Below, piece by piece: positions 6,831-32,338 of a DNA stretch of 34,825 nt (positions are counted from its first letter, which is position 1; each line of letters starts with the position of its first letter). The notes beneath the pieces are model-generated. The model was not told the DNA's origin. It made no database searches and was given only the letters and a program-made list of their open reading frames with translations. Position numbers and translations under genes: made by a program. The stretch is from a virus, in IMG/VR virus record IMGVR_UViG_3300004463_000728, positions 1 through 34,825 of that record, one strand, 5' to 3'.

Positions 6831-7474
6831 TAAAAGAATTTTGGTGATGGTTTATCCTGGATAATTAAAGGCAACGGCTTCGTTGATTTAGCAGAAAATG
6901 AATAGGGCTGCACATTGATATGCGCAGTCTTTTGAATGGTGTTTTCACTAAGTATTACAATTTCATATATTCCGCGAGCATTCAATACTTCGTGTTCAAT
7001 TTCAATAGATTTTTTCAGGTCCAGGAATGCAGCCAATTTTAAAAATAGATCCATTGGATATTGTGCTTCATTATTGCAAAGCATTCCACTTACTGAAATG
7101 TTCCAATCACCACTATTTATAAATTCATCAACTGAAGTGTCTCGGCCTTGAATAACGGTGACAACGATATTTTTTGTTCTGTTGGCCTCTACAACTGCAC
7201 TTTCAAGTAATAAATCTTCCAAGCCGTCAGTTCCTTTCAATCTTAAAGGCATGAATAACGGCATTCCAGATAGAGTGGATGACTGGCCGTAATCTTTCTT
7301 CTTGTAAAGTGTTACATTTTCATAACCAATGGCAATTTTAGTAGCCTCTTCTAGGGCAATATCATACTCATCTTGAATACGTGTATTTAATAACGTATTC
7401 ACTGCTGCACCCAACGCAGGGTTATATCTTACATTGGATGTTAATATTGCTAATTCAGGTAATTTAAATTCCAT
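6830..7474 (-). CDS. Tail/baseplate-associated protein (DUF6046-like)
   Basis: The 214-residue protein lies between the tape measure and the hub, where Mu has gp43. It contains TKNIVVTVIQGRDTSVDEFI and GDWNISVSGML, followed by a region that recalls the DUF6046 family of Bacteroidetes phages and, more distantly, LysM-type tail proteins joining tube and hub. Its stop shares one base with the start of the hub gene. No enzymatic motif is visible. The family match is from memory and needs a profile search. Confidence 0.5.
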   Translation of the reverse strand: MEFKLPELAILTSNVRYNPALGAAVNTLLNTRIQDEYDIALEEATKIAIGYENVTLYKKKDYGQSSTLSGMPLFMPLRLKGTDGLEDLLLESAVVEANRTKNIVVTVIQGRDTSVDEFINSGDWNISVSGMLCNNEAQYPMDLFLKLAAFLDLKKSIEIEHEVLNARGIYEIVILSENTIQKTAHINVQPYSFSAKSTKPLPLIIQDKPSPKFF

Positions 7475-7485
7475 TTAAGTTCAAT

Positions 7486-9642
7486 TTAAATTGCTACTTC
7501 AAAATCTCGAACCGCTCCGATCAGAGTTTCCGAAACTTGTTTTTTAATTTCCGAAAGACCTTCTTTAAGAGTAGTACTTTGTAAAATAATGTCTCCGTTG
7601 ATAAGGTTTTGTATTCGCACATCAACGCGTTTAACTTCACCTGCTCCTGACATTACTTTGTCCGAAGAACTCGATGATTCTTTTCCTTTACTGGATGATG
7701 TTGATACTAATGGAGGTGCAGGTTCCTCGGTTGCTGTTGAAGAATTTGAAACCGACTTATTGTTTTTAGACTCTGCTTTCCCTAATCTTTTTAACAGTCT
7801 ATTTTCCTCAGCCAATAGAGTGTTTTTTATTTTAGCCATTGATTTATCATCCAGTCCTGGTAAGTCCAACAGCCCGTTATTTTTACCGTGATTTTTTCGT
7901 TCCTGTGCTTCAAACTGCATTCTTTTTTTCACAGAAGCAGTGTACATTTCCGCTAATACCTCCGCTTCTGCTCTTGCCTGAATGTTTTTTATTAGTTCCT
8001 TTTCAGCCTTGTTAATATCATTTAAGGCACCGGCCTGAAGATTATATTTCTTTGTTAGACCGGGTTGAATTTCATCTATCTTTTTTAGAACATCCTTATA
8101 CTCATCAGTTCCTTTCTTGGTTGTCTTTAAAGCAGTAAACAATTTCTCTATTTGAACCCGTTGATCAATGGTTTTGGCCGATACCCTAGATGAAATTTCA
8201 GCATTCATTTTTTGAGTTGCTGTCAATCCTTTATAATCTCTTGTCGCTGCAAATATAGCTGTGCCTAATAAGGCTAATCCACCAATAACTAAACCAATTG
8301 GATTAGCAGCTAATGCAGCATTCCATAACCACTGCGCTGCTGTAATCGCTTTTGTTGCTATTGAACCAGCGATTGATGCTGCAGTAGAAGCTTTTTCCAT
8401 TATCGCCTGTCTACCCTTCGCTGTTGCTAATGCTAACACTGCTGATTTTGCGACTCCAAAAACAGGGGCAAAACTATTGACGGTTGTCATCACCTCCATC
8501 ATTGGCTGTAAATAGGCGGTAGCTCCGCCAGTGGCCTCAAAGAATGAAAGTTTGGCATCATCAATCGATGCTTTCATTCGAGCCATTTTCTCTGCAGTGG
8601 ATTCCATGACAATATTCGCCTGCGCTTGCGCTCCTCCTGTTTTACCAATTTGAGTTGCAAGTTTGTCCTGAGCGTCAACGGATGAAAGTAGAATGTTAGC
8701 AGCTGCTGCGTTCTCAGTCCCGAAGACCTGAGCCATGATTGTAGCATCGCCCTGGGCTTTCTTCAACTCTCTTAATCGGGTCGTGAACGGCAATGAAGTA
8801 TTGGAAACGATATCCATATTCACTCCCAACTTTTTCAGTTTATCTGCAGCTTCTTTCGGAATGACATCCTCACCTGCCATTTTACCAAGGACATTTCGCA
8901 ATGCCATACCTGCTTCACTACCTTCTTTACCACCCGCAGCCAGTGCTTGAATTGCCGCATTAGTTTCAATGAATGATACTTTGGCTTGTTTTGCCGCAAC
9001 TCCTGACACTTTTAAAGCTGCTGATATCTGTGGAACCTCAGCCGCACCTAATTGTGCGGAGTTGGCCATGACATCCATCATCTTTGTCATTTCCGCGGCG
9101 GCTACTTTCGGTTTGGATAGATCCACACCAAATTGAAGCATACCTGTTGTTAATGCATCAACAGCTCCTGCAGCATCACCACCCATTGTTTTGGACATGA
9201 TTTGAACATTTCGTTCCATCAATCCAAGCGATTCCTTGCTTTTTGCTATATCTGGTCCTAATCGACCTAATAAAGTTTTATAAGTATTAATTGATGCAGC
9301 CGCATTACCTCCAAATTCTTTTGCAGAGGCACGCGCTTTGTCACCGAGTTGATCAAGGTCCTTGCCAGTCAAACCCGTCAGAGCAGAAAGGTCTTTTAAT
9401 GAAGCATTAAATTCTAGTCCAGGTGCGTTCAGATCCTGAAGACCTTGATTTACGTTTTGTAGGTTTTGGTGAAATGCCGCCAGGTTGACGGATTTCATCG
9501 AGGATTCAATTTTATTTAAACTCGATGCAGCATTTTGTTGAAACGCCTCAGAGGACTTTGAGTTTCTCTCAAAGCCCTCATTCATTTTCTTGAGTACATC
9601 AAGAATATTTCCTTTGGCGTTTATGTCAATGTGTTCCTGCAT
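7486..9642 (-). CDS. Tail tape measure protein, TP901 family
   Basis: This is the longest protein in the tail operon at 718 residues. It has a helical N terminus, a TP901-type core (residues about 80-350, Gly/Ala/Lys-rich with ALTTGMLQFGVDLSKPKV and GSEAGMALRNVLGKMAGED), and a hydrophobic stretch (about 430-465: AALAANPIGLVIGGLALLGT) typical of tape measures that enter the host membrane. A Ser-rich low-complexity segment comes near 640-670. Its ATG overlaps the stop of the frameshifted chaperone frame as TAATG. It sets tail length and helps DNA ejection. Confidence 0.85.
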   Translation of the reverse strand: MQEHIDINAKGNILDVLKKMNEGFERNSKSSEAFQQNAASSLNKIESSMKSVNLAAFHQNLQNVNQGLQDLNAPGLEFNASLKDLSALTGLTGKDLDQLGDKARASAKEFGGNAAASINTYKTLLGRLGPDIAKSKESLGLMERNVQIMSKTMGGDAAGAVDALTTGMLQFGVDLSKPKVAAAEMTKMMDVMANSAQLGAAEVPQISAALKVSGVAAKQAKVSFIETNAAIQALAAGGKEGSEAGMALRNVLGKMAGEDVIPKEAADKLKKLGVNMDIVSNTSLPFTTRLRELKKAQGDATIMAQVFGTENAAAANILLSSVDAQDKLATQIGKTGGAQAQANIVMESTAEKMARMKASIDDAKLSFFEATGGATAYLQPMMEVMTTVNSFAPVFGVAKSAVLALATAKGRQAIMEKASTAASIAGSIATKAITAAQWLWNAALAANPIGLVIGGLALLGTAIFAATRDYKGLTATQKMNAEISSRVSAKTIDQRVQIEKLFTALKTTKKGTDEYKDVLKKIDEIQPGLTKKYNLQAGALNDINKAEKELIKNIQARAEAEVLAEMYTASVKKRMQFEAQERKNHGKNNGLLDLPGLDDKSMAKIKNTLLAEENRLLKRLGKAESKNNKSVSNSSTATEEPAPPLVSTSSSKGKESSSSSDKVMSGAGEVKRVDVRIQNLINGDIILQSTTLKEGLSEIKKQVSETLIGAVRDFEVAI

Positions 9643-10533: not shown

Positions 10534-10965
10534 TTAAATACTATGCATCTTGATTCCTGCGCAGATCAGGTCAAGCTTTACTTTCGATGAAGTATCACCT
10601 TGTTTGATATCACGCATGTTGTTTAAGAATTCGCAGTTCTGAATCACGTCCACAACCATTGGTGAATTCAATGTCGCTTTGTAGCTGACAACAATTTCAA
10701 ATGGTGGAATGTTTGTGATATCTCCAAGCGAAGCTTGTTGAAGTGCAACGGCTTCAAATTGGTACACCTCCATTGAAGGATTCGTGTATTCATTGTTTCC
10801 GTAACCTCTTCCAATAGGTTCGTCACCTGCACCCATGATATTCTCCTTGTTTCTTTTGTTTCCATAAGAAATTGAAGTGATACCTGTCAGTGTACGACCT
10901 AACATATTTACGGAGATAGATGCCCAAGCATGCTGAACTCCGTTTATAAAGATTGGTGTGGGCAT
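10534..10965 (-). CDS. Tail tube protein
   Basis: The 143-residue protein directly follows the sheath gene, as tube genes do in contractile phages. It starts with PTPIFINGVQHAWASISVNMLGRTLTGITSISYG and has a conserved central segment (EPIGRGYGNNEYTNPSMEVYQFEAVAL) typical of Mu/P2-type tube subunits in Bacteroidetes phages. It is beta-rich and lacks catalytic motifs. Many copies would stack as the inner tube. Confidence 0.75.
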   Translation of the reverse strand: MPTPIFINGVQHAWASISVNMLGRTLTGITSISYGNKRNKENIMGAGDEPIGRGYGNNEYTNPSMEVYQFEAVALQQASLGDITNIPPFEIVVSYKATLNSPMVVDVIQNCEFLNNMRDIKQGDTSSKVKLDLICAGIKMHSI

Positions 10966-10970
10966 TTCGA

Positions 10971-12182
10971 TTAATTATTAGGGTTTGTGAATCCGATGTA
11001 GTTCGTAATTGTCTCGGCAACTCCTGTTGGCACAATAGATACCTGTGTAGTCAATTCGGAAGTTGCAAGAACATCCTGAGCCGGATCGATTTGAACCGGT
11101 GGAGTTGGTCCTTGTGGATCAGGTCCAGAAATTTCACCTGCTTGGAACATTTGACGAAGTGCCTTGTTTCCTGCAGATTCCATTACAGCAATTGTAACCG
11201 GATCAATTAACCCGGTTGCCGTATCAACAAACACGGTTGAATTAACGAAAGGCAACATTGCCTGACGTGTCAAACGTGCAGCTTTATTCCAGGTACGATT
11301 CTTTTCAATCGTGCTGTAATCATCTGTGGCGGTTGTACAAGTGAACGAAGCGTTCATGTAAATACCAGGATGATCTGTGTAAGAAATGAAATACAAGTAA
11401 CCATTCGTGTTGAGCGTGTCTAATTGTGCTGCAGTTTTATCCTGCATTAAAACACCGTTCACACGGGCAACATCAAACGCTCCGGACAATAAATTATATT
11501 TACCAACCCAACCGATACTCTCATTTACTTTAGCCAGGGAAACAACTCCCAATGCACGACCCAATGAAGTATGCTTTTGCGCCCATGCTCCAAGTCCGTA
11601 GAATGCATCATTTTGACCAAGCATTACAGATACATGTTTCGCTAAAGCGGTTCGTGTATTTGTTGCACCGGTGGCTCCAAGACCTTCCAACACAATGTGA
11701 ATTGGTCGGTGATTCTGTAGACAATTCAAAGCAAACAATTGAGCCTGTGCAATTGCACCTGTTAATGCTACTTCATAATCTGCAGGGGCAACTGAAGGAT
11801 TAAACACCACCCCTAATTGCTTGATCTTTCCTTCTGCAGTATTGATCAACTTAATAGCAGATGTTGCAGTTGCCGGTGTTAACATTTCCACCGGTGTAGC
11901 TGTTTGTGCTGTGAACTGAACATACAAAGTACCGCTCGCATTCACTTCAAAGAACTCAGCAATTGCTTGGTAAATCTGAGCAGTTGACGTAACATCAAAA
12001 GCAGCATTTACACCAAGTGCTTCTGCCTCTGCAGCTGAACCCAATTTATACACGTTGTTCAGCACATACGTAGCACCTCCTGATGGTGCAGGAGCCTGGA
12101 TGATCATTGCAGAAATACCGTCATTGGACTTGGCTGTTATACCAAGTCCTCCTGACTGTTGAATATTTATTACTTGTCCCAT
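10971..12182 (-). CDS. Contractile tail sheath protein (DUF2586-like)
   Basis: The 403-residue protein is the expected size for a Bacteroidetes-type sheath and lies just before the tube gene with a 5-nt gap. The C-terminal third shows sheath features: a segment YLYFISYTDHPGIYMNASFTC followed by IEKNRTWNKAARLTRQAMLPF, then a beta-rich end (SIVPTGVAETITNYIGFTNP). The family resembles DUF2586. A contractile sheath places the virion among myovirus-like transposable phages. Confidence 0.75.
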   Translation of the reverse strand: MGQVINIQQSGGLGITAKSNDGISAMIIQAPAPSGGATYVLNNVYKLGSAAEAEALGVNAAFDVTSTAQIYQAIAEFFEVNASGTLYVQFTAQTATPVEMLTPATATSAIKLINTAEGKIKQLGVVFNPSVAPADYEVALTGAIAQAQLFALNCLQNHRPIHIVLEGLGATGATNTRTALAKHVSVMLGQNDAFYGLGAWAQKHTSLGRALGVVSLAKVNESIGWVGKYNLLSGAFDVARVNGVLMQDKTAAQLDTLNTNGYLYFISYTDHPGIYMNASFTCTTATDDYSTIEKNRTWNKAARLTRQAMLPFVNSTVFVDTATGLIDPVTIAVMESAGNKALRQMFQAGEISGPDPQGPTPPVQIDPAQDVLATSELTTQVSIVPTGVAETITNYIGFTNPNN

Positions 12183-26368: not shown

Positions 26369-26516
26369 TAAATTTTACATCCTTGTACATGAATTTCTTG
26401 TATCCCGGTATTGATTTACATTCCCGGTTAATTGTCTTGTGAGAATTGGCAACGCCAACCTTAACAAGCGTATTTATTCGTCGCTCCTTTCTTCTTTTTG
26501 TGAAATAGATTACCAT
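26352..26516 (-). CDS. Small basic hypothetical protein
   Basis: I choose ATG 26516 (54 residues, VIYFTKRRKERRINTLVKVG). A start at 26555 would add 13 residues but overlap the membrane-protein gene by 46 nt. The protein resembles short early phage proteins with KRRKERR and a Cys-x-x-x-Gly segment. It overlaps both neighbours by a few bases. No function can be assigned. Confidence 0.45.
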   Translation of the reverse strand: MVIYFTKRRKERRINTLVKVGVANSHKTINRECKSIPGYKKFMYKDVKFNEEGD

Positions 26517-26740
26517 TTGCGAGTGATGAACAAGAAGACATGAATGGTGAACCATTTACATCCGATGATTGAAAGAAGTAGAATTCCTATAGATGTCACT
26601 GCAATAAATGGTGACATCACAATTAGCCAGGACAAGAATGGCCAAAAGGTAAATTTCAAAACCAACAGTGCAAACGTTGAGCTGAACAGCGCGATCGTTG
26701 CAAGGTTGAATAATTTGTTGTTTTTTGTTTCTGAATTCAT
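26510..26740 (-). CDS. Small two-helix membrane protein
   Basis: The 76-residue protein has two hydrophobic segments (about residues 13-33 and 36-60) and little else. It follows a tRNA-like hairpin by 15 nt. Candidates are a small inner-membrane exclusion or stress protein. Confidence in the coding call comes from its ATG, its position in the operon and the clear membrane pattern. Confidence 0.5.
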   Translation of the reverse strand: MNSETKNNKLFNLATIALFSSTFALLVLKFTFWPFLSWLIVMSPFIAVTSIGILLLSIIGCKWFTIHVFLFITRKW

Positions 26741-26755
26741 AGTTGTTATGTTTTG

Positions 26756-26812
26756 GCACGGTGACCGGATTCGAACCGGTATCTGTCAATCATTCCGAAT
26801 AATGCACCGCGC
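26756..26812 (-). ncRNA. tRNA-like element without a D arm (57 nt)
   Basis: On the minus strand a perfect T arm is present: stem ACCGG (26780-26776) / CCGGT (26768-26764) with the canonical loop TTCGAAT. An 8-bp acceptor-like stem encloses it, GCGCGGTG (26812-26805) with CACCGTGC (26763-26756), with one G-U pair. Between them only 24 nt remain. A 4-bp stem with 7-nt loop TTCGGAA could be an anticodon arm (CGG), but there is no room for a D arm. It fills the 78-nt gap between two early genes. Confidence 0.55.
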
Positions 26813-26818
26813 TTGTTT

Positions 26819-27250
26819 TTAAGCTTCTTCCTTATAAGGGAAAATTTCAACGATTGGAGAAACCGATATCATCGGGATCTGAAAGTCAACCATAAGAGTT
26901 GATAGACTCTCCTTGATTCGGTCGTATGCTTGTTTCACTGAGGCAGCACTTACTAAAAAGTTCTGAGCCACTTTTTTGGCAGTTTCTGATTCGTCTGATG
27001 AGAGATAAGTGATTTTCACTTTGTACCATACATCAGAATCATCATAAGCAAAAATGTCGTGGATCTCGGTTTTTGTCACACCGGTGACGTTGAATTCACC
27101 TCTGATCACAGAACCAAGTTCTTCATAGATTCTCGCTTCAGCATCCGTGAATGTCATTGCAGCCAATAAATAAGGCTCAGACACTCGTTTAAAAGTTCCG
27201 TTTTCCAGTTGCTTTGTATACCGAACTTTTACAGTAAACCAGTTATTCAT
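26819..27250 (-). CDS. DUF4494-family protein
   Basis: The 143-residue protein begins NNWFTVKVRYTKQLENGTFKRVSEPYLLAAMTFTDAEARIYEEL, the pattern of DUF4494, a family of unknown function common in Bacteroidetes chromosomes and phages. The C-terminal half contains the second family block (VWYKVKITYLSSDE). Its presence is good evidence for a Bacteroidetes host. Confidence 0.75.
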   Translation of the reverse strand: MNNWFTVKVRYTKQLENGTFKRVSEPYLLAAMTFTDAEARIYEELGSVIRGEFNVTGVTKTEIHDIFAYDDSDVWYKVKITYLSSDESETAKKVAQNFLVSAASVKQAYDRIKESLSTLMVDFQIPMISVSPIVEIFPYKEEA

Positions 27251-27541: not shown

Positions 27542-28195
27542 TTACAGATTTGAAAAGTTGATTGAAATTGCTTTGAACTTGCCTTCCTTGTCCTTCTTAT
27601 AGAACTGATATCCGAATTTCTTGAAGTCAATTGAATATCCTTCTTTGATCAATCGCAATCCCTCCCTCCATTTTGGAGCATCAAACTCAGCTTCATGCTT
27701 GATGAACTGCATTACTTTGGAGTATTCCAATTCACCTGCTTCATTTTTCGAGATCAATCCCATCAGCAAATTGAAGATTCCTGGCTTTGCACTGGCCGCT
27801 CCCTCCTCCATTAAAAACTCCTGAACCAATTCAACTCCTTTGTGCGCAGTCTCATCCCATTTAGGATCTGTGTCACGGGATCTCGTGATCTTAAAGTTTC
27901 CATCTTTTGAAACAATTGAAAACCCGCCTTTTGACTTGGAAGGCACTAATCCAAACTCATCAAGTTCACCGTGTTGGGCTTCCATCATTTCAGCAAGATC
28001 ATCCTTGAAGTCGGACATCATTTGTTCAATTTTCACAACTCCTTTAATTGCTTTTTGAATTCGTCTTTCACGATTCTTTTCGTACTCAGTCCGTTTTTTG
28101 TTCTGTACTTTACGCTCAGCCCTTTGTTCGGCTGCTAATTGATCCATCAATTGTTGACGCTCAGTTTCACTAAGATTTTTAATGTTTACGCTCAT
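27542..28195 (-). CDS. DUF3164 family early protein of Mu-like phages
   Basis: The 217-residue protein fits DUF3164: a charged helical N terminus (NKKRTEYEKNRERRIQKAI), a middle block with DGNFKITRSRD and a C-terminal WREGLRLIKEGYSIDFKKFGYQFYKKDKEGKFKAISINF. DUF3164 is found almost only in the early regions of Mu-like phages. The molecular role is unknown. It supports the classification of this element. Confidence 0.8.
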   Translation of the reverse strand: MSVNIKNLSETERQQLMDQLAAEQRAERKVQNKKRTEYEKNRERRIQKAIKGVVKIEQMMSDFKDDLAEMMEAQHGELDEFGLVPSKSKGGFSIVSKDGNFKITRSRDTDPKWDETAHKGVELVQEFLMEEGAASAKPGIFNLLMGLISKNEAGELEYSKVMQFIKHEAEFDAPKWREGLRLIKEGYSIDFKKFGYQFYKKDKEGKFKAISINFSNL

Positions 28196-28829: not shown

Positions 28830-29453
28830 CTATGTTAAATCGTTCCAATAATTTGCTGCTTTTTCAGCGTTGATAATAAAATCTTCATCTTGTCCAAACC
28901 GACCTTTTACTATTGCTTTAAATCCTTCAACCCGGATCTTTACATCTCCATTGTATTCAACATATTCCGCCAGTGTACCATAAGGTTTTTTTCCATCAGC
29001 ATGCGAAATCCAAATGAATAGTTTGGTTGGAAACATTCGCACGAGCTTCTTGTATTCAGCTTTTGAAATCCCTAAAAACTGTAACGAGTCGATAAAGATG
29101 AAATCGGGTGACTTTTGGCGTGATAGACGCTCAATGATATCCGGTAATTCCTCACTGATAATGATAAACCTTCTTTTCTCAATTGCATTGAACTTATGCC
29201 GAATGATGGCTTTCTGAAATGAAAGTCTAGCACCCTCTTCGATTGTGTCGTAAGCTACTCGTCCAAATTGAGTGAGATACTTGGCAAGCATAAGACAAAG
29301 CGTAGTTTTACCATGACCGGAATTTCCATATATAATCCAATTTCCAGTTCGATCAACTTCAACCCCGAAGGAATCAGCAAAAGCACCGTCGAATTTCATG
29401 GTCTTAAATTTCATTTTAGTTATTTGGTCAATGGAAATAGCTCGTTTTAACAT
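28830..29453 (-). CDS. RecA/DnaB-superfamily ATPase
   Basis: The 207-residue protein is a single ATPase domain. Walker A is GNSGHGKT (43-50); Walker B is DFIFIDSLQF (about 117-126). The downstream strand FIWISHADGKKPYG fits a sensor region. It follows MuB by one codon-length gap in the early operon. A related ATPase is present in several Bacteroidetes transposable phages; the role may be replication/transposition support. It has intact nucleotide-binding motifs, unlike the adjacent MuB. Confidence 0.75.
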   Translation of the reverse strand: MLKRAISIDQITKMKFKTMKFDGAFADSFGVEVDRTGNWIIYGNSGHGKTTLCLMLAKYLTQFGRVAYDTIEEGARLSFQKAIIRHKFNAIEKRRFIIISEELPDIIERLSRQKSPDFIFIDSLQFLGISKAEYKKLVRMFPTKLFIWISHADGKKPYGTLAEYVEYNGDVKIRVEGFKAIVKGRFGQDEDFIINAEKAANYWNDLT

Positions 29454-30305
29454 TTAGGCAGCCTTTTTGGAGTTGTTGAGCAAGTGGTATCTTTCGATTT
29501 CGCGTTTTACTCTTCGCATGTCACCTTCGCTGCTGTTGTAGATCGCGACAATTGAATCTTCATCGTCGACACCATTGACTTTACAAACCGCAGTGATGTC
29601 TTTAAGTGTAGCGTCGGGCAAACTGATAAACTTTCTACCTACACGAGAATACAATTCACGAATTCCGATTTTATCGCGCTGTACGCCTTTTAAAATGCGT
29701 TTTTGAAGTGCCGGTACTCCTGACAATAAAAATGCACAGTGTCCTTCAAGATCATTATAGAAATCCATGAACAAGTCCAATTGAGGATCCTTTAACTTAT
29801 CCGCCTGATCAACTATGATTAAAGGTTTGTGTAAGGTTCTGACATGTTCAACGAAGTTTTCGACCAATTCTCCAACTGTACCTTCAGCTGATAAACCTGC
29901 AGATCGAAGTAACGATTGAACATAAGTCTTTTTGGTCCAGTAATTTTTGCATTCAACCAGGATAACATTTTCTGTACTGCGTTCAAAGCGTTTGTAAGTA
30001 TGCGATTTTGAACGACCTTCTTTCATTGATACAGCAATCGAAACGCTACCTTCTTTCACTCCGGTAAGTAGTTGAATCATGTTTTGGTAGTTTGCCGTGT
30101 CAGCGTGGATCCAATTAAGATCGATCTTCAAAGCAACCTGAACTTTTCTCCACATTTCTTCTTTGATCAATTCCCATTTTCCGTGAATCATGTGGTTGAT
30201 CGTGGCAGCTGATATACCTGCTTTGATTGCGACCTTGTTTTGAGAAAGCTTGTTAGCCATTTGTGCCACTTCGCTTGCGATCTGTTGTTTCTGAATAGTT
30301 TCCAT
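29454..30305 (-). CDS. MuB-like transposition partner with N-terminal HTH and degenerate Walker motifs
   Basis: I choose ATG 30305 (283 residues), 8 nt after the MuA stop. Residues about 10-60 form an HTH of the MuB type (SQNKVAIKAGISAATINHMIHGKW). An AAA-like region follows. The expected P-loop is MKEGRSKS (94-101), where the glycines are lost though Lys and Ser remain. Walker B reads IIVDQADKL (163-171), with Gln where catalytic Glu is usual. MuB normally binds ATP, coats target DNA and activates MuA; here ATP hydrolysis is doubtful. Confidence 0.8.
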   Translation of the reverse strand: METIQKQQIASEVAQMANKLSQNKVAIKAGISAATINHMIHGKWELIKEEMWRKVQVALKIDLNWIHADTANYQNMIQLLTGVKEGSVSIAVSMKEGRSKSHTYKRFERSTENVILVECKNYWTKKTYVQSLLRSAGLSAEGTVGELVENFVEHVRTLHKPLIIVDQADKLKDPQLDLFMDFYNDLEGHCAFLLSGVPALQKRILKGVQRDKIGIRELYSRVGRKFISLPDATLKDITAVCKVNGVDDEDSIVAIYNSSEGDMRRVKREIERYHLLNNSKKAA

Positions 30306-30313
30306 AGTTATGT

Positions 30314-32272
30314 TTATAGATAAGTGAATACTGAATCTGATTCGACATCCGATCGGGTGTCTTTTGGTAAAGTGGATCCCATCTTGATCATCCATTCCTG
30401 ATCGTCGATTAGTTTATCCGGTGTAATTCCTGTGCGTTGTCTCAAGGCTTCCAGTTCCTGCACGTCGCGTTGTAATTCCTCCTCACGAATGCTGAAATCT
30501 TCGAACCACTTTTCTTTGTCGCCTTCTTTCATAAGTACCGGGATCTCCTGATGCGATCGTTTTGGTTGAGCGTGGGCAACAACTGTCTTTTCACCTGCAG
30601 CGTTTACTTCAATCAATTGGATAGAACTGTCAAGCTGCTCAGGATCGTAGCGAACGATGAATTTTTTGCCGATGTTGTATCTTCTGAAATTGATGTCTAT
30701 TTTTTCATTCGAATCGTACACTTCGAACATGTATTCTTTACCTGCGATGCGAAGGTGCAAACCGTCATTTTTGTATGTGATTGGTTTGGTTTCATTTACC
30801 CAAAACAGATCAATCATATCAAGGAAGTCAACCGGTTCTGACATTGGTACCGGCATTGCGTAAACTTCGGATCTCGTTTTACCTGCGATCAGTGGGTGCG
30901 TTGCATTGTTCCACATTTTAACAGCCAATTCCCAAGCCTTGATTAATTGATCCTTAGTAAGAAGTCGGTGTTTGTTAGCCAGGATAAAATCAATATTAGG
31001 AACGTTGTCCAAGTCGCGTGATTTAACTGATTGCTTATCTGAAAACCAAAACGTTGAAATTACTTGCTGCTGCAGTCGGTTGAAAATTGGTTCTGCAGGA
31101 TTGGATTTTGCTCGTGGAGCTGTTGGATGATGAACACCACCTTTGCGAGATACAATGCCGTCGTATAATTCCTGCATTCTTGCTGACTTGTGTCCGGATT
31201 GATTATCGTAAGTAAGTTTGTAAGGTCGTGACTGTGAAAAGTTGATTGCTGATTTTAATGCGGTGAAGTGATCAACATGGTTTTCCGTTTCTGAAAGAGA
31301 ATAACCAATGATCATTTCACTGAAGACATCGAATACCGGATTTATTTTCAGTTTCGCTGCCATCCCGGTTACATTGTCCAGGTAATGAACCCAATCAAGC
31401 TTCGTTCCATCGATCGCCCAATATGCATTCGGAAACCATTCAGATCTGTCTCGTGAAAGTTTGTGACCAAATGCCTTTGCATATTGTTCTTTGCCGTGTC
31501 GCGCCAAAGTCCAAACTCTTTTCACTTCCGGCTGATCTAAATACAAACCAATTGCTGATTCTGAAAGCGTTGGCCATCCTTTTTCTACTCGCTGAATATC
31601 GTACAAGGACAGCACGGTTGTAACAAGTGGTTTGTTCGGTAGGCAATAGGTCGCGAGTAAGTAATCCGCAATTTCACCTGTGATTTTTCTTCTATTATCA
31701 TTATCGGTTCCTCCATGAACGAGAGATCCATGTCCTTCCAACTTAAACTTTCGATACATTCTTTCAACTGATCTGTAATTACCGGGAATGGAGTGGCAAT
31801 AGTCGTTTGATGGGAGTTGATTAATTGCGTTAGAGATATTTTCCCAAAGCCTGGTCTTATTTCCTGTGATCTTTCGGGTATTCGTAGCCTTTGACACCAC
31901 GATTGTATCAATTGCCTTGAGGATAATTGCGTTTGTGGTGTATTCGGTTTGTTTTTCTGTTGTGAGTGGTTTGCCGTTGGCTTTTCTGAATGCTGTGAAA
32001 TAGGCTGCTGCTTCATAATCGGGTTTTAAGTAGGATTCAAAAATTGTTTTTTGTGCTGTTTGTGCAGGATCACCGGCGATCTGAACTACTTTTTGTTTGA
32101 GATCCTCACGCATGGAGGAGAATTCTACTAACGCCTGTCGACCGTTACCGCCTTTTTGAATAACATTCAAATACCCACGCGTCTTAAGTACGTCATAATG
32201 TGCTTTTGAAATTAGGTCACCAATTAAATGACTGGCTTTCACACAAAGAATATTGTTGTGGTATGTGTACAT
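30314..32272 (-). CDS. MuA-like DDE transposase
   Basis: The 652-residue protein cuts and joins phage ends to target DNA. The rve/DDE core is visible: D288 in YWAIDGTKLDW, D356 in KLTYDNQSGHKS, and E394 in KSNPAEPIFNRL. An N-terminal Mu-type DNA-binding region (HLIGDLISKAHYDVLKTRGYLNVI) lies before it. After about residue 480 come the Mu-transposase beta barrel and an Arg/Lys-rich C-terminal tail with a coiled segment (about 595-620) that could contact MuB. It is preceded by a tRNA-like hairpin. Confidence 0.9.
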   Translation of the reverse strand: MYTYHNNILCVKASHLIGDLISKAHYDVLKTRGYLNVIQKGGNGRQALVEFSSMREDLKQKVVQIAGDPAQTAQKTIFESYLKPDYEAAAYFTAFRKANGKPLTTEKQTEYTTNAIILKAIDTIVVSKATNTRKITGNKTRLWENISNAINQLPSNDYCHSIPGNYRSVERMYRKFKLEGHGSLVHGGTDNDNRRKITGEIADYLLATYCLPNKPLVTTVLSLYDIQRVEKGWPTLSESAIGLYLDQPEVKRVWTLARHGKEQYAKAFGHKLSRDRSEWFPNAYWAIDGTKLDWVHYLDNVTGMAAKLKINPVFDVFSEMIIGYSLSETENHVDHFTALKSAINFSQSRPYKLTYDNQSGHKSARMQELYDGIVSRKGGVHHPTAPRAKSNPAEPIFNRLQQQVISTFWFSDKQSVKSRDLDNVPNIDFILANKHRLLTKDQLIKAWELAVKMWNNATHPLIAGKTRSEVYAMPVPMSEPVDFLDMIDLFWVNETKPITYKNDGLHLRIAGKEYMFEVYDSNEKIDINFRRYNIGKKFIVRYDPEQLDSSIQLIEVNAAGEKTVVAHAQPKRSHQEIPVLMKEGDKEKWFEDFSIREEELQRDVQELEALRQRTGITPDKLIDDQEWMIKMGSTLPKDTRSDVESDSVFTYL

Positions 32273-32297: not shown

Positions 32298-32338
32298 GTC
32301 CGTCAGCGACTCGAACGCTGCATGTCTGCCTGCCGGAC
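32298..32338 (-). ncRNA. tRNA-like T-arm hairpin upstream of the transposase gene
   Basis: On the minus strand a perfect T arm is present: CAGCG (32320-32316) / CGCTG (32308-32304) with loop TTCGAGT. It is enclosed by a second stem, GTCCG (32338-32334) with CGGAC (32302-32298). Further upstream the segment TAGCGCAGTTAGGTT (within 32356-32371) resembles a tRNA D arm, but the acceptor and anticodon arms do not form. It looks like a decayed or reduced tRNA in the leader of MuA. Confidence 0.45.

Follow-up and report, generated by a model that had tools for sequence, protein, structure and literature searches.

Intergenic tRNA-like elements in the early operons of transposable phages of Bacteroidota

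A 57-nt tRNA-like element that has no anticodon arm, here called element A, lies between two early genes of a Mu-like phage operon, and it belongs to a family of tRNA mimics that are placed between early genes in transposable phages of Bacteroidota and probably in some other temperate phages as well. Its members vary in sequence in a manner that keeps their structure, they lie in the sense of the operon at recurrent positions, and they share a small set of conserved nucleotides. We consider it probable that they mimic tRNA in cis, so that the early mRNA is cut by host RNase P and RNase Z in the spaces between its cistrons.

Element A and its surroundings

The DNA analyzed (the window) is the whole 34,825 nt of a 34.8-kb virus record, IMGVR_UViG_3300004463_000728. 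The Mu-like early operon is on the minus strand, with genes for a MuA-like transposase (30314-32272; phrog_310, 1.2e-59), a MuB-like protein (29454-30395; phrog_296), an early ATPase (28830-29453; phrog_6891), a DUF3164 protein (27542-28195; PF11363), with which the transposition block ends, and a DUF4494 protein (26819-27250; Pfam PF14902, 1.8e-48). Element A occupies 26756-26812 of the same strand, with the DUF4494 gene directly upstream and an ORF for a small membrane protein, 76 aa and hydrophobic (26510-26740, minus strand), directly downstream.

Read from 26812 to 26756, element A is GCGCGGTG-CATTATTCGGAATGATTGACAGAT-ACCGG-TTCGAAT-CCGGT-CACCGTGC, followed by CAAAAC. It comprises an acceptor stem of eight pairs (one of them G.U), a 24-nt linker and a T arm (26764-26780, minus strand) with a 5-bp stem and the 7-nt loop UUCGAAU, the T-loop sequence being conserved family-wide. 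This minus-strand reading confirms the initial annotation of a 57-nt element with an 8-bp acceptor, a TTCGAAT T arm and a 24-nt linker. Since it begins 6 nt past the DUF4494 stop and ends 15 nt ahead of the next ATG, it spans the gap between DUF4494 and the membrane-protein ORF and so fills the whole space between two early genes, as had been claimed. The leader CAAAACATAACAACT (26741-26755, minus strand) connects it to the next start codon.

Other parts of that annotation have to be revised. The element had been described as lacking a D arm; what is missing is the anticodon arm together with any ability to decode, and a GG like that of a D loop is kept in the linker of all 35 strict family hits (see below). 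The likeness drawn to armless mitochondrial tRNAs is misplaced for the same reason. A 4-bp arm with the loop TTCGGAA had been offered as a possible anticodon arm, and a better pairing is that of CATT with AATG around the loop ATTCGG (26791-26804, minus strand), which by its position in the linker and its GG resembles the stub of a D arm.

The acceptor and T stems of element A together make 13 bp, in agreement with an acceptor/T stack of about 12 bp capped by a T loop. The 3' end reads C-CAA and is CCA-less, as is expected for a substrate of RNase Z. The elbow features of RNase P and RNase Z substrates are present as a T loop TTCGA and a GG of D-loop type, and their tertiary contact is predicted. 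The tRNA-like fold (-18.5 kcal/mol) is slightly less stable than an alternative one (-19.0 kcal/mol), by 0.5 kcal/mol. The folding energy of the element is unremarkable (z = -1.9, weak evidence alone), and comparison must therefore decide.

A strict geometric finder applied to both strands of the window returned element A as its sole match; the background was five matches in 3.66 Mb of order-2 Markov sequence, or about 0.05 expected per window. ARAGORN found no tRNA in the window and Rfam no match at gathering level, so that neither detects a tRNA (RF00005) cloverleaf there; nor does the window element contain an anticodon arm with a usable anticodon, there being only the 24-nt linker. Permissive Rfam searching gave SpF41_sRNA (RF02435; 20.9 bits, cut-off 52) and tRNA-Sec (RF01852; 17.7 bits, cut-off 47), both with E > 0.5. 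Like element A these have a closed acceptor-like stem and a T arm, but their length and layout are different and element A scores below their thresholds. A DNA similarity search of phages with the region gave no match, and neither did a search of viral contigs with an exact 24-mer from the 3' half of element A. We also considered an alanine minihelix, as G3.U70 is present, and rejected it as the relatives do not keep this pair.

A probable second member, element B, is found upstream of muA (32298-32338, minus strand). It reads GTCCG gcaggcagacatg CAGCG ttcgagt CGCTG a CGGAC and then ACAAC, and it ends 25 nt ahead of the muA ATG. It matches our compact covariance model R1 with a weak score that is below significance (20.6 bits, E 0.19-0.35). 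Relatives carry strong matches at the same place, and it is this location, 25 nt ahead of muA, that gives weight to its inclusion.

Close homologues of the phage DUF4494 protein, up to 86% identical, occur in chromosomes of Flavobacteriales/Crocinitomicaceae, which suggests that the gene was captured from a host of this type. Reading downstream of 28 chromosomal DUF4494 loci revealed nothing tRNA-like at that place, and we therefore reject a host origin in which element A arrived together with DUF4494.

Members of the family and their positions

The nearest phage (L002) keeps almost the entire gene order of the window, including an orthologue of the 76-aa ORF. Its version of the gap is occupied by an 81-nt tRNA-like element, GGTGGTAA...GAGGG-TTCGAAT-CCCTC-TTACCACC-CCA, which ends in CCA, unlike the C-CAA of the window. 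The initial annotation had looked to compensatory changes in relatives, and these are found here: 9 of the 13 pairs differ from the window on both sides, and every pair is kept. A third version, AACGGTGG...ACAGG-TTCGAGT-CCTGT-CCACCGTT, lies in the orthologous gap of a more distant phage (L013, MuA 45%). On sequence comparison the three keep the fold and not the sequence, a result that replacement of the element and stepwise covariation would give indistinguishably at this distance.

Scans with MuA and ATPase alignments, together with genome prophages and annotated phages, provided some 60 distinct early operons. The elements in these Mu-like phages and prophages of Bacteroidota form a graded series, from near-complete tRNAs that are incompetent in decoding down to 40-nt minihelices. 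Near-complete cloverleaves with useless anticodons occur in L097, L125, L218 and Hankyphage p00 (L182). Forms of 54-57 nt without an anticodon arm are those of the window, L102 and Elizabethkingia phage TCUEAP3 (L183). The feet of the TCUEAP3 elements are at 6899/6952 and about 1780-1822 of its record. The minihelices are 40-46 nt long, of the form UCCCG-ANNGGY...-stem-UUCGANU-stem-CGGGA-RCAAA. Two relatives (L184 and L260) are recognized by RF00005 and two full-size members (L101 and L106) are Leu-like. The anticodons seen are ata, gggg, cct, ccaa or none, and because the full-size members have senseless anticodons or none at all, decoding is not the feature that has been kept. Element A shares with the wider series an acceptor and T arm, a GG-containing linker, an intergenic location, sense orientation and a preferred place, and we assign it to the family with high confidence on its architecture, position and synteny.

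Two members occur as unannotated elements in deposited phage sequences. In Hankyphage p00 (BK010646.1, 1767-1848) early genes are separated by a cloverleaf with an irregular anticodon arm, which ARAGORN identifies as tRNA-Arg(cct); its counterpart in the relative L218 has ccaa. In a Porphyromonas phage (PP754930.1, 3208-3278; L184) a tRNA-like element scoring 45 bits with RF00005 ends about 14 nt before the transposase start.

There are two preferred places in the operon, one just upstream of muA (-48 to -121) and the other 4-6 kb into the operon around DUF3164. Elements are also found before the ATPase (L273, L275 and L295) and between small ORFs (three in L130), and some phages have several copies (L130, L215 and L274). 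Upstream of muA in L102, L104, L121, L124 and L131 there are variants, TCCCGCCACGGCTT..GTGGTTTCGACACCAC..GCGGGAAC, whose size and place are unchanged but whose loop has 6 or 8 nt and is not a standard T loop. Between the element and the muA start of L112, L119, L120, L122, L133 and L209 is a conserved stretch resembling an inverted repeat, CCATTTAAACACCGTTTAAAT, that could belong to the leader or serve as an operator.

We counted elements by one fixed strict rule in 62 dereplicated muA loci, finding 35 in the sense orientation and none antisense. The same rule gave one hit in ten replicates of Markov sequence (about 0.1) and none in 837 kb of host loci. Almost all of the strict hits (33/35) lie outside ORFs, where 22% of random positions would fall. 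A start codon follows 10-40 nt further on in 25/35 (6% at random), and 21/35 come 20 nt or less after an upstream stop. The distance to the start codon is typically 15-35 nt, with some elements far from the next start. At least one element is present in 26 of 53 complete loci, some of which had been fetched through element searches; for loci fetched only through MuA or ATPase the figure is about 21 of 48. About half of the loci are thus without one by the strict rule, and the element is not a universal requirement. It is absent before muA in the near relative L097, no credible element was found in Mu, D3112 (first 12 kb), B3 or Peternella_1, and a pattern for an ACGGTT-type subfamily had no match in viral contigs.

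Such elements occur outside the Mu-like phages as well: a lambdoid-type prophage (L252; G682:C15) carries two. These lie at 7851-7897 and 10933-11000 in an early operon encoding a repressor, RecT, a RecE-like exonuclease, SSB, NinB, a replication initiator and DnaB, one of them 10 nt after the NinB stop. Minihelices of the form TCCCGAATGGTTTG...TTCGATT...CGGGA are also seen in contigs without MuA (L264, 1237-1274; L268, 2801-2838; L291, 2532-2569; L296 and L310). Several are set right after a stop codon and are followed by a different sequence (CGCGCAG...), and they may reflect the same device in other groups of phages.

Fold and conserved nucleotides

The hits of the finder are in themselves no proof of covariation, because the finder demands pairing. 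As an independent test we searched 2.9 million viral contigs with a sequence pattern in which four to six pairs of the T stem are free to take any bases. Of 67 matches 56 were unique; the first four free pairs were all complementary in 47 of these (chance of four about 2%), and at least three in 54. Homologues of MuA, MuB, ATPase or DUF3164 are present in 51 of 60 loci found in this way, and muA often starts 16-40 nt downstream. The covariation score is 0.715, compared with 0.168 for shuffled and at most 0.195 for slid alignments, the alignment being model-based and fitted to the structure; 97.7% of its cells are paired and 10 of 11 pairs have double changes.

A blind run of model R1 over two sets of Bacteroidota genomes, 395 and 393 in number, matched 2 and 10 of them respectively (G359 in both). 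The matches adjoin MuA, MuB or the early ATPase, except for the lambdoid-type prophage L252 and one real tRNA-Leu; the latter, in L247, belongs to a tRNA-Leu array and is not a family member. The compact model gives no match to element A.

The linker GG is found in 27 of 27 unique compact linkers (joint chance 2e-13 by shuffling). The acceptor and T stems stack to 11-13 bp in 34 of the 35 strict hits, the length being kept however it is divided (5+6, 6+6, 5+7, 7+5 or 8+5). Among 51 unique compact elements the 3' flank begins with R in all 51, then C in 50 and then a base other than C in 50, giving R-C-(not C)-A; none has CCA, and the base preceding the element is never G. The anticodon arm, the length and, across subtypes, the acceptor sequence are not conserved.

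A possible role in processing of early mRNA

RNase P reads the elbow by stacking, along with the acceptor/T stack, and RNase Z places a flexible arm on the elbow and acts on CCA-less precursors (PMC4810234). The parts that the family appears to have retained are those read by these host end-processing enzymes, namely the stack of about 12 bp, the T loop, the D-loop-like GG that could build the elbow, and the CCA-less 3' end (R73-C74-not C). This correspondence indicates processing. In the mechanism that we propose, host RNase P would act during synthesis of the early transcript and cut at the element's 5' foot, directly past the upstream stop. Host RNase Z would follow with a cut at the 3' foot, behind the unpaired base, and what remains ahead of the next cistron would be a short A-rich leader with no structure. 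The layout of the elements, set against the preceding stop codon and with a short A-rich stretch before the ATG, matches the product of such a two-cut separation. The polycistronic mRNA would be split at the two preferred places, ahead of muA and, near DUF3164, behind the transposition block, and each segment would have its own ends, stability and translation. We infer both enzymes, the cutting itself and a benefit to the phage. The suggestion of a tRNA mimic for RNase P/Z processing in the initial annotation has become the best-supported reading through the comparative work, with cleavage as its inferred part, and its guesses of a translation signal or a decoy persist as weaker rivals.

The constant spacing of 15-35 nt between element and start suits an effect on initiation as well as it does a processed leader. 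An uncut mimic might dock on or near the 30S subunit, or hide upstream mRNA, and so set the initiation of muA, the ATPase or other genes. However, docking needs neither the CCA-less R-C flank nor a conserved length of acceptor/T stack, a good substrate for RNase P and RNase Z would get cut, and for some elements the next start is a long way off; we regard translational control as unlikely. If both ends are cut a stable tRNA-like product is expected, and this together with the several copies in L130, L215 and L274 would suit a small RNA acting in trans, a sponge or decoy that occupies either a host factor with affinity for tRNA or a defence directed at tRNA. The fixed intercistronic placement near the next start argues against this, and the lack of an anticodon arm runs counter to a decoy for decoding or for anticodon nucleases, making such a function rather doubtful.

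The recurrence of elements at module borders, partly duplicated as with the three in L130, could point to a signal in DNA or transcription, such as an operator, a boundary of recombination modules or an intrinsic terminator. Yet the stems change in a compensating way while loop and flank are fixed, which is the mark of RNA, the orientation is always that of the operon (35 to 0), and ACAAA rather than a U-run follows the elements, by which a terminator is rejected; we find a signal of this kind very improbable. The resemblance of full-size members to tRNA makes tRNA capture their likely origin. That the elements are merely neutral relics, host tRNA genes decaying after their capture by phages, deserves almost no credence, since phages so deeply divergent would not, under decay, have kept the pairing and position of the elements along with their T loop, linker GG and 3' flank and lost the anticodon arm alone, and the conservation data already contradict it.

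In mitochondria functional tRNAs lie between the genes of polycistronic transcripts, and their excision by RNase P and RNase Z frees the mRNAs. The arrangement in the phages is alike in that tRNA structures sit between genes; unlike the mitochondrial tRNAs, the elements are incompetent in decoding or only 40 nt long, are in phage operons, and their cutting is proposed from comparison. The tRNA-like 3' end of the long noncoding RNA MALAT1, the source of mascRNA, is a mimic that serves only to recruit end-processing enzymes, as we suggest for the phage elements; it is eukaryotic, single and at an RNA 3' end, whereas they are bacterial-viral, intergenic and repeated. That lncRNAs make use of tRNA mimicry is stated elsewhere (PMC4810234). 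The 3' tRNA-like structures of plant viruses (TYMV type) are likewise viral mimics of the tRNA elbow, but stand at the 3' terminus of an RNA-virus genome with a pseudoknotted acceptor, while element A is operon-internal in a dsDNA phage and has a plain helix. Known substrates of RNase P include phage M3 RNA, the C4 antisense RNA of P1/P7, T4 gene 32 mRNA and a polycistronic mRNA (PMC11143913). These phage transcripts resemble our elements in being cut by RNase P, as the latter would be; they come from unrelated phages, and no family of T-loop/elbow mimics repeated between cistrons is described in PMC11143913.

We found no description of such elements in Rfam or the open full-text literature, and judged by these the family is undescribed. 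On balance we favor the view that minimal tRNA mimics of about 40 nt punctuate the early polycistronic mRNA of temperate phages of Bacteroidota for host RNase P and RNase Z, as a counterpart of mitochondrial tRNA punctuation that would have arisen repeatedly, as captured tRNAs were pared down to acceptor, T arm and elbow. If this is right, about half of the Bacteroidota transposable phages examined contain an undescribed RNA family. Its members would be natural minimal substrates of RNase P and RNase Z, revealing what evolution retains of tRNA when processing alone matters, and may also account for the tRNA-like fragments with nonsense anticodons met in phage annotation. Phages would in this way be borrowing housekeeping RNA enzymes for dividing their polycistronic mRNA. 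Cultured phages such as Hankyphage p00 and Elizabethkingia phage TCUEAP3 allow direct testing.
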